Source: Sporomusa termitida (GTDB lineage: Bacteria > Bacillota > Negativicutes > Sporomusales > Sporomusaceae). From it: a stretch of 64,000 bases of DNA. The stretch is from contig NZ_CP036259.1 in NCBI RefSeq assembly GCF_007641255.1, positions 310,001 to 374,000 on the forward strand. Direction: 5' to 3'. Shown here one piece after another: positions 28,545-60,175 of this stretch. Made by a program: the position numbers and the translations under genes. Positions within the stretch are counted from its first letter, which is position 1; the number at the start of each line of letters is the position of its first letter. The notes under the pieces are model-generated. The model did no database searches. It was not told the origin of the DNA and saw nothing but the letters and a program-made list of their open reading frames with translations.

Positions 28545-28573
28545 TTGACAAAAAAGACCAATTAAAATAAAAT
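28545..28573 (+). promoter_or_regulatory. sigma-70-type promoter of the iron/c-di-GMP operon
   Basis: TTGACA (28545-28550), a 17-nt spacer and TAAAAT (28568-28573) form a near-consensus promoter. A Fur box starts at the next base, so repression by Fur would block polymerase directly. Confidence 0.85.
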
Positions 28574-28592
28574 GATAATGAAAACCATTATT
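28574..28592 (+). promoter_or_regulatory. Fur box
   Basis: GATAATGAAAACCATTATT matches the classical 19-bp Fur consensus (GATAATGATAATCATTATC) at 16 positions. It covers the expected transcription start of the operon that ends in feoB, which fits iron-dependent repression. Confidence 0.82.
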
Positions 28593-28596
28593 AAAT

Positions 28597-28624
28597 GTAC
28601 TGGCTTGGGGCCGGTACTTTTTTT
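28597..28624 (+). terminator. early leader terminator (attenuator-like)
   Basis: An 8-bp stem GTACTGGC/GCCGGTAC (one G-U) with a 5-nt loop is followed by seven Ts. It lies only about 15-25 nt after the predicted start of transcription and before the GGDEF gene, so transcripts would have to pass it. An anti-terminating structure or factor is implied but not seen. Confidence 0.65.
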
Positions 28625-28635
28625 AGAATTTAAAT

Positions 28636-28650
28636 TGATAACCATTCTCA
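28636..28650 (+). promoter_or_regulatory. second, weaker Fur-box-like site
   Basis: TGATAACCATTCTCA matches 13 of 15 positions of the 7-1-7 Fur consensus TGATAATNATTATCA. It lies 28 nt before the GGDEF start codon, downstream of the leader hairpin. Confidence 0.5.
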
Positions 28651-28677: not shown

Positions 28678-29667
28678 GTGAAAATAACTACAAAGCTGCA
28701 AATTCTGATGACTGTGGCGGCAGAAGTGCCTGTTATAGTCATTATCTTTATGGATCAGGCGGTTGCTGCCGGGGCTGGCGTAGCCGCACTGGTTGGTTTA
28801 CTGGGCCCGTTTATGACCGCCCGCTGGCTGGTAACCAAGGATTTAGGTGCTATCAGGGCGTTATGCAAGCTGGTTAAGGAAGGGAAATACCGGGTTCATA
28901 CGGCATTGCCCAATGAAGCAGCAGATAACGGGGAAGAGAATGAGTTTGTTTCCGTGATGCGGGATATGAACTGGATGGCCCGCGAAATTATGCTGCGGGA
29001 AGGGCAATTGAACGAGGCCATTAATGAACTGGACGGGGCTCAGCAGGAATTGATCGAACAGAAACAAGCACTGGAAGTGGCCAATAAGCGTTTAAATGAG
29101 ATGGCTATGACGGATCCGTTAACAGGATTATCCAACAGGCGGCATTTTTTCGACCATCTGGAACAGGAGATCTGCCGGGCAAATCGTAATGAGCAGCCGC
29201 TGTCGCTATTTATCCTGGATATCGATTATTTTAAACAGGTAAACGACACCTATGGACATCAGGCCGGTGATGTTGTCCTGAAAGCCATTGCCTATATTCT
29301 GCGCAACCGGTTGCGACGCAGTGATATGGTAGCCCGGATTGGCGGTGAAGAGTTTGCCGTTTTGCTCTCAGATACTAATCTGTCGCAAACACTGGAACTG
29401 GCGGAACAAATACGCCATTGTATCAAAGAATATGTGTTTCAATCCTGCGATGGCAAAAGTATAAATATTACCTGCTCTATCGGCGCCTTCAGCGGTGACC
29501 GGCCCGATTATACCAAGGCGGAATTATTGTACAAATATGCTGATAAGGCTCTCTATGTGGCGAAGAATTCCGGGCGGGACAAGGTCGCTTATTTTGACTG
29601 TGCCCAACAAGGACAAGACAACGATGAATTGTTTGCGCAACTAGGGCCAAGAGGAGTGACTCATTAA
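28678..29667 (+). CDS. membrane-associated GGDEF diguanylate cyclase
   Basis: 329 aa from GTG 28678 with GGAGG upstream. Residues 8-50 form two hydrophobic helices (ILMTVAAEVPVIVIIFMD and GAGVAALVGLLGPFMTARWLV). Residues 95-140 are a coiled linker, and 145-310 a GGDEF domain with the DPLTGLSNRR entry motif, active loop IGGEEF, and an RRSD inhibitory I-site five residues upstream of it. It should make cyclic-di-GMP with product inhibition. Its stop overlaps the ATG of the HD-GYP-FeoA gene, which is followed by feoB, so it is co-expressed with iron transport under a Fur-box promoter. How iron alters its activity is unknown. Confidence 0.9.
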   Translation: MKITTKLQILMTVAAEVPVIVIIFMDQAVAAGAGVAALVGLLGPFMTARWLVTKDLGAIRALCKLVKEGKYRVHTALPNEAADNGEENEFVSVMRDMNWMAREIMLREGQLNEAINELDGAQQELIEQKQALEVANKRLNEMAMTDPLTGLSNRRHFFDHLEQEICRANRNEQPLSLFILDIDYFKQVNDTYGHQAGDVVLKAIAYILRNRLRRSDMVARIGGEEFAVLLSDTNLSQTLELAEQIRHCIKEYVFQSCDGKSINITCSIGAFSGDRPDYTKAELLYKYADKALYVAKNSGRDKVAYFDCAQQGQDNDELFAQLGPRGVTH

Positions 29668-30494
29668 TGGAAGCATTGCTCCAGAGTGCCGGGGTGCACG
29701 AGTTTGTCGAGGCGTTTACGGCTGCACTTGATGCTAAGAATACATATACGCGGGGACATTCTGACCGTGTGGCCGAGATCGCAGCCGCTGTTGCCAGACA
29801 GTTGGGTATGAGCCGGTCCAATCAGGATACGATTCATGTGGCCGCCCATCTGCACGATATCGGCAAGATTGGCATACCGGATCATATCCTGCTAAAACCT
29901 GACAAGCTGTCTACCGAAGAGTTTGAGGTAATTAAAAGTCATTCCCAGGTGGGTTATGATATCCTTAACAAGGTAACGATGCTAAGGCCAATTGCCAAGC
30001 TTGTCCGTTACCATCATGAACGGTGGGATGGTCTGGGCTATCCGGCGGGGCTTGCCGGGACAGCCATTCCGTTAGGGGCCAGGATCATTGCCCTTGCCGA
30101 TGCATTTGATGCGATGACCAGTGAACGCTCATACCGCCCCTGTAGATCGCAGGAGGAAGCAGTGCAGGAGGTGCTGCGCTGCCGGGGGACGCAATTTGAT
30201 CCGGAAATTGCCGACGCTTTTGTCCGGCTTTGTCAGGAGGGGAAACTGCCTGGAGACACCGAGGCTGTGAAATGGCTGAGTGAAATGCTGCCCGGCGAGC
30301 AGGGACGAGTAACCAAAGTAACCGGCCGGGGTTCGATTAAACAGCGTCTGGTCGATATGGGCATCATCACCGGCACGCGCGTAGCCGTACAAAAATTTGC
30401 TCCCCTGGGAGACCCCATGGAGATTAAAGTTAAGGGGTTTAATCTATCCTTACGAAAAAAAGAAGCCCGATTAATTGAGGTGGCGATAGGGTGA
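29667..30494 (+). CDS. HD-GYP phosphodiesterase fused to a FeoA domain
   Basis: 275 aa. Residues about 8-185 are an HD-GYP domain with H-HD metal motif (HDIGKIGIPD, about 63-72), downstream HH (HHERWDGLGYPAGL, about 116-129) and the ALADAFDAMTS helix. These proteins hydrolyse cyclic-di-GMP at a di- or tri-iron centre. Residues about 205-275 are a FeoA/SH3-like domain (LPGEQGRVTKVTGRGSIKQRLVDMGIITGTRVAV, then GDPMEIKVKGFNLSLRKKEARLIEV). FeoA is normally a separate small protein that assists FeoB, whose gene follows with a GTGA overlap. No separate feoA is present, so this fusion probably supplies it. The domain order is directly visible; regulation of FeoB by cyclic-di-GMP is inference. Confidence 0.92.
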   Translation: MEALLQSAGVHEFVEAFTAALDAKNTYTRGHSDRVAEIAAAVARQLGMSRSNQDTIHVAAHLHDIGKIGIPDHILLKPDKLSTEEFEVIKSHSQVGYDILNKVTMLRPIAKLVRYHHERWDGLGYPAGLAGTAIPLGARIIALADAFDAMTSERSYRPCRSQEEAVQEVLRCRGTQFDPEIADAFVRLCQEGKLPGDTEAVKWLSEMLPGEQGRVTKVTGRGSIKQRLVDMGIITGTRVAVQKFAPLGDPMEIKVKGFNLSLRKKEARLIEVAIG

Positions 30495-32512
30495 CGAATT
30501 CGCAGCTAACCCTCGCTCTCGCCGGTAATCCCAATTCTGGCAAGACCACAATCTTTAATAACCTCACAGGCTCTAAACAGCATGTGGGCAATTATCCCGG
30601 TGTTACGGTAGAGAAGCGGGAGGGGTTCAGAAAATACCAGGACAAAGAGTTCATTGTCGTGGATTTGCCGGGCACCTATGGGTTAATGGCGCATTCAACC
30701 GATGAATTGGTAGCCCGTAGTTTTATTGTTCACGATAAACCTGATATCATCGTAAATGTCGTCGATGCGGCCAACCTGGAGCGTAACCTGTATCTGACCC
30801 TGCAGCTATTAGAACTGCAAAGGCCGGTGGTTATAGCCCTGAATATGGTTGATGCGGCGGCCGGCAAGGGGATACAGATTGATGACAAGCGGCTGGCGCA
30901 GGTTCTGCATACGCCGGTTGTGCGTTGTATTGGCAGGCAGAATCAGGGAACCGAAGATATTCTGACATTGGCGGCGGCAACTGCCGAATATGGGCAACCG
31001 GGCGGGGTTACTCTTCTTTATGACAGCAAAATTGAAGAAGCGATCGACGAGATCAGCCAGTTACTGGCTCAGATCAAAGGCGGAGTTCGTTTTCCCCGGC
31101 GCTGGCTGGCCTTAAAGCTCCTGGAAGGCGACAGTGAAGCAAGCCGGTATTTAACCGGTATTGCCGGCAGTGAACCGGTGGCTAAGGCTGCGAGGCTGCG
31201 CCGGCAGGCTTTGTTTGAGCAAGTAGGGGACCCGGCCTTCCTTATTGCTGAACAGCGACACCGGTTTGTTGCTGCCGTATATACCCATGCCGTGACAATC
31301 AGGGCCGATGACGGCATGACCACTTCGGATAAACTGGATGTCGTCTTAACCGGAAAGTTCTCCGGCTTGCCGATTTTTCTGGGCCTGATGTGGCTGCTGT
31401 TTAATCTGGTATTTACTATTGGTGCCTATCCACAGGCCTGGATTGAGGCTGGCTTTAGCAGTTTGTCACAATTAGCCGGTGACTATCTGGCTGACGGTGA
31501 ATTACAGTCTTTTATCATTGATGGCCTTTTAGGCGGTGTTGGCAGTGTCATTGTTTTTTTACCAAATATCCTTATTTTATTTCTTGGTATTTCCTTTATG
31601 GAGGATACCGGCTATATGGCGCGGGCGGCTTTTATTATGGACAGGATTATGCGGGCTGTTGGTCTGCACGGCAAATCCTTTATCCCGCTCTTATTAGGGT
31701 TTGGCTGCAGTGTTCCTGCCATTATGGGAACCCGGACGCTGGAAAACCCCCGTGACCGGCTTGTCACAATTTTGGTGGCCCCTTTTATGAGCTGCAGCGC
31801 CAGGCTGCCTGTATATACGGTGCTGATTGGGGCCTTCTTTGCGGACAAGGTCGCCGGCACAGTCTTGTTTTCTATTTATTTCCTGGGTATTTTACTGGCG
31901 GTTCTGCTGGCCAGCGCTTTCCGCACGCTGCTCTTCAAGGGGGAGAGTGAGCCCTTCGTTATGGAGATGCCGCCTTACCGCTGGCCGACAATGAAAAGCA
32001 TGATTATCCATATGTGGGAACGGAGCCTGCTTTATTTGCGCAAAGCCGGAACGATTATCCTGTCTGTTTCGATTTTAATATGGTTTCTGGTAAACTATCC
32101 AACCACAGACAACATTGCGCTAAGTTATGCCGGTCAATTGGGCAAGCTGGTAGAGCCGTGGATTGCGCCCCTCGGCTTTGACTGGAAGATTGGTTTGGGA
32201 TTGGTATCGGCCTTTACCGCTAAAGAAGTGCTTATCAGTACCTTAGGGATGATTTACCATATTGATCAGACCGGAGAAACGGCAGTAGCCCTGCAGGCGG
32301 CTATCAGCAATGATCCGGCTTTCAGCCCGCTTGTCGCCTATTCTTTAATGGTCTTTGTTTTGGTTTACTCGCCCTGTCTGGCGGCAATTGCCGTCATCAA
32401 GCGGGAAACCAACTCCTGGCAGTGGGCATTATTCAGCCCTGTTTATACAACCGGATTAGCCTGGATTTTGTCTTTTATTATATTCCAGGGGGGAACCTTG
32501 CTGGGCTATTAG
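30491..32512 (+). CDS. feoB: FeoB ferrous iron transporter
   Basis: 673 aa polytopic inner-membrane protein. The N-terminal G domain has G1 GNPNSGKTT (12-20), the switch segment VGNYPGVTVEKREG, G3 DLPGTYG (about 59-65) and G4 NMVD (about 117-120), followed by a helical GDI-like domain. The membrane part has two Gate regions with the conserved Cys (LLGFGCSVPAIMGTRTLENPRDRL and FSPLVAYSLMVFVLVYSPCLAAIAVIKRE) and ends shortly after, so it lacks a long FeoC-like tail. GTG start overlaps the preceding stop. It imports Fe(II), essential for an anaerobe; the promoter carries a Fur box. Confidence 0.96.
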   Translation: MTNSQLTLALAGNPNSGKTTIFNNLTGSKQHVGNYPGVTVEKREGFRKYQDKEFIVVDLPGTYGLMAHSTDELVARSFIVHDKPDIIVNVVDAANLERNLYLTLQLLELQRPVVIALNMVDAAAGKGIQIDDKRLAQVLHTPVVRCIGRQNQGTEDILTLAAATAEYGQPGGVTLLYDSKIEEAIDEISQLLAQIKGGVRFPRRWLALKLLEGDSEASRYLTGIAGSEPVAKAARLRRQALFEQVGDPAFLIAEQRHRFVAAVYTHAVTIRADDGMTTSDKLDVVLTGKFSGLPIFLGLMWLLFNLVFTIGAYPQAWIEAGFSSLSQLAGDYLADGELQSFIIDGLLGGVGSVIVFLPNILILFLGISFMEDTGYMARAAFIMDRIMRAVGLHGKSFIPLLLGFGCSVPAIMGTRTLENPRDRLVTILVAPFMSCSARLPVYTVLIGAFFADKVAGTVLFSIYFLGILLAVLLASAFRTLLFKGESEPFVMEMPPYRWPTMKSMIIHMWERSLLYLRKAGTIILSVSILIWFLVNYPTTDNIALSYAGQLGKLVEPWIAPLGFDWKIGLGLVSAFTAKEVLISTLGMIYHIDQTGETAVALQAAISNDPAFSPLVAYSLMVFVLVYSPCLAAIAVIKRETNSWQWALFSPVYTTGLAWILSFIIFQGGTLLGY

Positions 32513-41244: not shown

Positions 41245-41274
41245 AAAATTGTCATCAACTTAATTACATACGGC

Positions 41275-41485
41275 GAGTTGGGTGCCCTGCGGGGCTTAAT
41301 AGGGAAGTCCGGTTAGAAACCGGCGCGGTCCCGCCACTGTAACGGGGAGCAAGCTTAAGATATACCACTGGGATAATTGGTCTTGGGAAGGTTTAAGCAA
41401 GCTATGATCCGGAGCCAGGAGAACTGCCTAGCTGACAATCACCGTTTTTACCCACGAGGTATGGGGAGGGGATTACAGTAGGCGC
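41275..41485 (+). promoter_or_regulatory. cobalamin riboswitch 1
   Basis: It contains the conserved core in order: GGTGCC with its hairpin, TTAATAGGGAAGTCCGG, GGCGCGGTCCCGCCACTGTAA, the CCACTG/GGGAAGG segment, and the B12 box AGCCAGGAGAACTGCC. The structure ends with ATGGGGAGGGGATTACAG. The architecture equals the AdoCbl-I class. It precedes a cyclic-di-GMP-type signalling gene rather than a B12 synthesis or transport gene. Confidence 0.95.
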
Positions 41486-43844: not shown

Positions 43845-43877
43845 AATTTCACAGAGGACAACTTAATATGTTTGAAA

Positions 43878-44085
43878 TAGGTGCCTAAAGGCTTAATAGG
43901 GAAGTCCGGTTTAATGCCGGCGCGGTCCCGCCACTGTAACGGGGAGCTAGCTTAAGATATACCACTGAGCATTTGTCTTGGGAAGGTTTAAGTGAGCCAT
44001 GAGCCGGAGTCAGGAGAACTGCCTATTTGACAATCGCCGTTTATTACCCACGAGGCATGGGGAGGGGATTACAGTAGACGCTGGC
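43878..44085 (+). promoter_or_regulatory. cobalamin riboswitch 2
   Basis: Same ordered core as riboswitch 1: GGTGCC, TTAATAGGGAAGTCCGG, GGCGCGGTCCCGCCACTGTAA, B12 box AGTCAGGAGAACTGCC and the closing GGGGAGGGGATTACAG. It controls the CbiK gene 300 nt downstream. Confidence 0.95.
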
Positions 44086-45529: not shown

Positions 45530-45562
45530 AAAATCGAACCTGTTTTGTAATTTAATACTGTT

Positions 45563-45775
45563 GAGTTGGGTGCCCAATGGGCTTAATAGGGAAGACCGGT
45601 GAGAAACCGGCGCGGTCCCGCCACTGTAACGGGGAGCAAGCTTAAGATATGCCACTGGGGATAAGATTCCCGGGAAGGTTTAAGCAAGCGATGAGCCGGA
45701 GCCAGGAGAACTGCCTAGCTGACAATCGCCGTTAGAGACCCACGAGGTATGGGGAGGGGATTACAGTTAAGCGCG
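45563..45775 (+). promoter_or_regulatory. cobalamin riboswitch 3
   Basis: GGTGCCC, TTAATAGGGAAGACCGG, GGCGCGGTCCCGCCACTGTAA, AAGCTTAAGATATGCCACTGG, B12 box AGCCAGGAGAACTGCC and GGGGAGGGGATTACAG appear in order. It is nearly identical to riboswitch 1 in the AAGCTTAAGATA region, suggesting duplication. It heads the long operon containing CobN, CbiZ and TonB. Confidence 0.95.
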
Positions 45776-59847: not shown

Positions 59848-59973
59848 TAAACAATAGGTATCGCTATGGCAGGCCTACTGCTGCCGACCAGCTGTTTTCT
59901 TATGGGAATATCGGCTGTAACAGCGGTATAGTGAATAACGGCGGAGTTGTCAGCTAATTAAATATTATGGAGA

Positions 59974-60175
59974 CAGGTGCCCTTCGGGGCTTAATAGGGA
60001 AGTCCGGTGCAAAGCCGGCGCGGTCCCGCCACTGTAATGGCGAGCGAAACCAGGATATACCACTGAAACGGGGCGTTTTGGGAAGGTCTGGGGGAGTGAT
60101 GAGCCAAAGCCAGAAGCACTGCCTGTCTGACGGTCACCGGTTTACTCACGCGCGATGAGGAGGGGATTAGAAAGC
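59974..60175 (+). promoter_or_regulatory. cobalamin riboswitch 4
   Basis: GGTGCCC, TTAATAGGGAAGTCCGG, GGCGCGGTCCCGCCACTGTAA and GCCAGAAGCACTGCC appear in order, but the B12 box and central stems differ more from copies 1-3 (ATGGCGAGC, AAGCCAGAAGCACTGCC). It is therefore an older or independently acquired copy. It heads the second btuF-btuC-cobN unit. No clear -35/-10 pair could be placed before it, so it may also be read through from tonB. Confidence 0.93.

Follow-up and report, generated by a model that had tools for sequence, protein, structure and literature searches.

The window considered here is a 64,000-nucleotide stretch of the genome of the anaerobic bacterium Sporomusa termitida (contig NZ_CP036259.1, positions 310,001 to 374,000 of the forward strand), which contains a ferrous iron uptake operon that also encodes proteins of cyclic di-GMP (c-di-GMP) turnover. 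The operon consists of a diguanylate cyclase gene, a gene whose product carries an HD-GYP domain followed by a FeoA domain, and feoB (Table 1); FeoA is known as a small partner protein of the Fe(II) importer FeoB. This gene content had been proposed in an earlier sequence-only reading and agrees with the Pfam and NCBIfam assignments, both halves of the fused protein being returned by a domain search. The cyclase is predicted by hydropathy to be anchored in the membrane by two N-terminal transmembrane helices, and inspection of its motifs found GGEEF, which fits the GG(D/E)EF signature, and the upstream RxxD intact. The FeoA domain (PF04023) scored 72.7 bits (cut-off 23) and covered model positions 3-73 of 74; solved FeoA structures, e.g. 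2k5l, were retrieved as its relatives, and a linker of roughly 10 residues connects it to the HD-GYP domain. FeoB scored 636.6 bits against the equivalog TIGR00437 (cut-off 315.65), with the G domain, Gate and FeoB_C all present. The genes overlap at both junctions, as the same reading had stated: TAATG (29665-29669) joins the cyclase stop to the fusion start, and GTGA (30491-30494) the FeoB start to the fusion stop. Its statement that there is no separate feoA holds for the window operon and fails for the genome, where three other feo loci contain four additional matches to FeoA above the cut-off. In an AlphaFold2 model, the predicted local distance difference test values of the HD-GYP domain were mostly above 90, and the FeoA part was of low confidence because FeoA-only rows, misplaced by the aligner, were omitted from the structure input. 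The window FeoB lacks about 110 residues found in most Negativicutes FeoBs (673 versus about 790 residues); Clostridia FeoBs of about 683 residues are similarly short.

Table 1. Features of the operon and its leader in window coordinates, with the recurrent DUF2325 gene in locus coordinates (G, genome; L, locus)
Feature	Position	Strand	Evidence and remarks
Predicted sigma-70/A-type promoter, TTGACA-17-TAAAAT	28545..28573	+	11/12 consensus matches; aligned and conserved in G006, G004, G011
Fur-like box 1, overlapping the promoter -10 end	28573..28593	+	ATAATGN5CATTAT; 21-mer consensus with 3 mismatches
Terminator-like hairpin and T run, between the two Fur-like boxes	28597..28624	+	-14 kcal/mol, z -3.2
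Fur-like box 2, TGATAACCATTCTCA	28636..28650	+	2 mismatches to the 7-1-7 consensus; conserved in G006, G004, G011
Diguanylate cyclase gene	28678..29667	+	Pfam GGDEF, residues 143-301, E 6.5e-49
HD-GYP:FeoA fusion gene, 275 residues	29667..30494	+	Pfam HD_5 and FeoA; same fusion in G006
HD-GYP domain, residues 19-181	29721..30209	+	Pfam HD_5, E 3e-41
FeoA domain, residues 204-273	30276..30485	+	Pfam FeoA, E 2.5e-20
FeoB, 673 residues	30491..32512	+	FeoB_N, Gate, FeoB_C, TIGR00437
DUF2325 gene	L129:6956-7264; L194:5670-5960; L224:6058-6381		About 20 further loci

The fused frame recurs in G006, a genome of the same genus, with the same 275 residues and 94% identity. A survey of genomes for the fusion, suggested by the sequence-only reading, thus yielded this second case: full-length matches occurred in 2 of 380 Negativicutes genomes, the window genome and G006, which were also the only ones among 28 genomes of the order with FeoA in a frame of more than 200 residues, and a sample of 398 genomes from the phylum yielded no HD-GYP:FeoA fusion. 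All parts of the operon are under purifying selection between these two genomes, the fused FeoA domain being the most constrained; the ratios of nonsynonymous to synonymous substitution rates (dN/dS), approximate since synonymous sites are near saturation, were 0.005 for FeoA, 0.022 for HD-GYP, 0.048 for the cyclase and 0.089 for FeoB. A frameshift or assembly artefact was rejected on the basis of the frame shared with G006 and of this selection (dN/dS 0.005-0.09). The HD-GYP orthologues of G004 (78%) and G011 (81%) end near residue 200, and feo genes do not adjoin them. G004 and G006 have an aminotransferase gene upstream and two transporter genes downstream in common, and their loci differ by the FeoA part and feoB, which provides a clean comparison with and without these elements. 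G011 has neither an adjacent feoA nor a FeoB of the window type (33% for the best match); in G019 the genes stand unfused, as cyclase, HD-GYP, feoA, feoB. The fused FeoA domain shows up to 71% identity to stand-alone FeoA, and in the FeoB tree the window FeoB grouped with those of Negativicutes, where no sister of it was well supported. The closest named relatives are Sporomusa, with S. acidovorans, whose HD-GYP and FeoB (L036) are identical to those of another member of the genus, G005.

The fusion belongs to a wider association of feo genes with c-di-GMP enzymes. A tree built from 108 HD-GYP domains places the window protein among single-domain HD-GYPs of Negativicutes, in a clade of 27 rows with support 97/94. 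Feo neighbours were found for 19 of these 27 rows versus 5 of the 81 other HD-GYPs (Fisher p 9e-11, indicative since tree rows are related to each other); the control figure includes L108, a multidomain HD-GYP, and L097, with a distant FeoB fragment, whose feo links are weak and are not taken as support. Among 60 relatives, HD-GYP stands beside FeoB in 22 (in two of which, G007 and G055, gene fragments only were seen) and the cyclase alone does so in two more, giving 24 of 60, from 12 Negativicutes families. The gene orders include feoA-feoB-cyclase-HD-GYP; cyclase, then feoA-feoB-HD-GYP; HD-GYP-feoA-feoB-cyclase; cyclase-HD-GYP-feoA-feoB; and cyclase-feoA-feoB, and retention of the association through such repeated reshuffling argues for selection on it. 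FeoA is unfused in most of these clusters. The 20 best HD-GYP loci of Clostridia-type members of the phylum were also examined, and feoB was nearby in 12 of them, mostly directly upstream. Chance adjacency was rejected on the basis of the clade enrichment and these Clostridia loci. Several feo-linked cyclases read GGEEY or GGDEY, a conservative change, and loss of the GGDEF motif in them was therefore rejected. A small DUF2325 gene recurs beside the clusters in Negativicutes, Clostridia and Thermodesulfobacteriota, and is pointed to as an uncharacterised further partner.

A second fusion, FeoA:GGDEF, was identified in Thermodesulfobacteriota. In a Caldimicrobium locus (L051), FeoA (residues 12-83) is fused to GGDEF (residues 96-246) beside separate HD-GYP and FeoA genes; the contig ends just upstream of the module, and feoB is located elsewhere in that genome. 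The module is present in eight Thermodesulfobacteriota genomes, L051 and seven more (L224-L230), the latter with the general layout DUF2325 - FeoA - [FeoA:GGDEF] - HD-GYP - FeoA - FeoB, and it includes feoB wherever the locus is complete. Every gene of L224, whose extra FeoA gene comes after HD-GYP, was confirmed by Pfam; the DUF2325 gene was not seen in L228, and the GGDEF part of L229 is incomplete. In L230 (6274-7031, genome G475), two overlapping frames stand in place of the FeoA:GGDEF gene that is intact in the relatives. The Caldimicrobium locus was also considered as an HD-GYP:FeoA fusion, a tblastn match spanning residues 10-272, and was rejected since the open reading frames are separate. 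FeoA has been joined independently to each of two opposing c-di-GMP enzymes, in two phyla. Such a fusion ranks among the stronger indications that sequence by itself can offer of physical or functional coupling, and the independent fusions, together with the recurrent operons, argue for a functional and probably physical link between c-di-GMP and Feo.

The operon leader carries elements that suggest control by iron. The motif ATAATGN5CATTAT has one match in the 64-kb window, where 0.01 are expected, and the 21-mer with 3 mismatches has an expectation of 0. The layout of promoter, box, hairpin and box is common to G006 and the feo-less G004 and G011, with changed hairpin stem sequences. A hairpin lies between Fur-like boxes in four genomes (the window genome and those with leaders L116, L118 and L117), and it could be an attenuator or the end of a short Fur-controlled transcript. 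The window genome encodes three Fur-family proteins, a PilZ protein and six c-di-GMP-I riboswitches; operator-like boxes at the promoter and Fur-family proteins in the genome are, at the level of sequence, what a Fur regulon member would present. No c-di-GMP riboswitch was detected in the operon leader at the gathering threshold. Six of eight feo-less orthologues carry a Fur-like site (at least 12/14 matches, within 220 bases), against a background rate of 4.6% that itself includes some feo genes, and in G011 a perfect Fur-like box precedes the HD-GYP gene, whose product is 81% identical to the window HD-GYP. Based on the boxes before the operon and before these orthologues, the cyclase/HD-GYP pair is probably regulated by iron independently of the feo genes.

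HD-GYP enzymes are able to hold iron, and the centre of PmGH is a tri-iron one (PMC4159591). The window HD-GYP has the equivalents of all two-metal ligands (H189, H221, D222, H250, H276, H277 and D305), the GYP motif and K225. The third-metal ligand, E185 in PmGH, is replaced by Tyr, as in most other HD-GYPs compared, which places the protein outside the tri-iron subtype. The catalytic Asp is also absent: the equivalent of PmGH D183, whose change to Ala abolishes PmGH activity (PMC4159591), is Asn25 of the fusion (29739-29741). Each of the 27 members of the Negativicutes clade has Asn, Ser or His at this position, where 79 of the 81 other HD-GYPs have Asp. V-cGAP3 (5z7c), deposited as a phosphodiesterase specific for 3'3'-cyclic GMP-AMP, carries Ser there, so inactivity of the window enzyme does not follow.

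The link between c-di-GMP and Feo that the sequence-only reading had put forward is strongly supported by operons in three bacterial groups, the second fusion and the Fur-like boxes. The reading that we favour, with a probability of roughly 45%, is that a Fur-controlled c-di-GMP module has been built into an Fe(II) uptake operon, and that both the metallation of HD-GYP and the c-di-GMP in its vicinity depend on the entry of Fe(II). Iron scarcity would induce the operon, and FeoB, the membrane-bound cyclase and the opposing HD-GYP phosphodiesterase would be made together. The FeoA domain would hold HD-GYP at the cytoplasmic face of FeoB and double as FeoB's own FeoA; such docking is proposed by analogy with Helicobacter pylori, in which FeoA and FeoB form a membrane complex (PMC10353542). 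Fe(II) entering through FeoB would load the HD-GYP metal centre and favour local c-di-GMP breakdown, and the cyclase would prevail when iron is absent. Iron supply would thereby be signalled into c-di-GMP and lifestyle outputs, possibly with feedback on FeoB. The main argument for this direction is G011, whose Fur-boxed HD-GYP is kept without a FeoB of the window type, which favours signalling from iron status to c-di-GMP as the older role. Several points weigh against the proposal: control by Fur, the docking of the fusion on FeoB, catalysis and the direction in which information flows are predictions; the Fur-box test was devised after the pattern was seen, so its p-values are indicative; replacement of D183 throughout the Negativicutes clade makes phosphodiesterase activity uncertain; and the HD-GYP:FeoA fusion occurs in two genomes only. 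A more tentative extension is that a c-di-GMP complex would reside on FeoB, FeoA serving to attach both cyclase and HD-GYP, and that FeoA would be a general adaptor between iron transport and second messenger across Negativicutes, Clostridia and Thermodesulfobacteriota.

The reverse direction was proposed by the sequence-only reading, in which either c-di-GMP or iron status read at the HD-GYP centre may gate FeoB through the attached FeoA. In the c-di-GMP form, binding or turnover of c-di-GMP by HD-GYP would alter the attached FeoA and open or close FeoB, so that Fe(II) import would be gated by c-di-GMP. The direct fusion of an extremely constrained FeoA domain to the enzyme, the FeoA domain on the Thermodesulfobacteriota cyclase and the need of FeoB for FeoA in studied systems (PMC10353542) all fit this proposal, which we nevertheless consider rather unlikely, as Fur-like boxes also precede HD-GYP and cyclase genes that have no adjacent feo, G011 has no FeoB of the window type at all, and FeoA stays unfused in most clusters. 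It was also considered that the SH3-like FeoA domain is a metal- or partner-sensing regulator of the enzyme fused to it and not a dock for FeoB. This would be in keeping with its fusion to DtxR-type repressors and, in another phylum, to GGDEF, yet it appears improbable for an operon that offers its FeoB no other feoA and whose FeoA domain is so close to stand-alone FeoA. Mere co-regulation, with cyclase and HD-GYP as members of an iron-limitation regulon and a fusion of independent halves created by accidental loss of a stop codon, would explain the boxes before feo-less orthologues and a fusion confined to two related genomes, but it is hard to reconcile with a joined frame kept despite saturating synonymous divergence and with the independent FeoA:GGDEF fusion kept across several Thermodesulfobacteriota genomes.

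The operon can be compared with several known systems. Like the Feo system (FeoA and FeoB, with FeoC in some), it encodes a FeoB that has the domains defining this family, with FeoA directly upstream in an overlapping gene; unlike that system, it begins with a diguanylate cyclase gene, and its FeoA forms the C-terminal half of a protein whose other half is HD-GYP. A survey of Feo evolution (PMC8749426) reports Feo(AB) fusions, in Bacteroides and some Firmicutes; there too FeoA is part of a longer protein that the operon encodes, but it is joined to the transporter and not to a second-messenger enzyme, and a term search of this text found no mention of a GGDEF or HD domain. Stand-alone HD-GYPs (PmGH, 4mcw; V-cGAP3, 5z7c) share both motifs, HD and GYP, and every two-metal ligand with the window protein, but the latter has Tyr for the third-metal Glu, as is usual in the family, Asn at D183, and FeoA at its C-terminus where the others have a sensor at the N-terminus. 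A FeoA/SH3-like domain also forms the C-terminus of DtxR-type repressors observed beside feoB (L147:8894-9646 and L195:2237-2923); in these as well FeoA ends a regulatory protein, but they are DNA-binding metal sensors and the window partner is a c-di-GMP enzyme. No description of a feo/GGDEF/HD-GYP operon or of such FeoA fusions was found in the searched literature, whose scope excluded subscription papers and domain-architecture databases. The component families are known, and the fusion and the conserved gene partnership are apparently undescribed.

Two other observations concern the genome and the window. Upstream of the other main feo operon of the genome (feoA-feoA-feoB; L143, G000:C1:4622000-4636000) are a CheA-like histidine kinase, which has a CheX-like domain, and a response regulator; a long cyclase-like match beside this operon was rejected as a GGDEF protein, being this kinase. 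Four cobalamin riboswitches are located within 19 kb on the + strand of the window (41263-41445, 43862-44040, 45551-45732 and 59958-60140).

What FeoA does has long been an open question. An influence of iron on biofilm formation is well known, and to our knowledge this effect has no general molecular link to c-di-GMP. The fusion represents the extreme form of a conserved partnership and suggests that iron import and c-di-GMP are coupled in several bacterial groups; if this is true, the role of FeoA would extend beyond assisting FeoB. The fusions and the unfused operons make it testable whether Fe(II) import sets c-di-GMP or c-di-GMP sets Fe(II) import.

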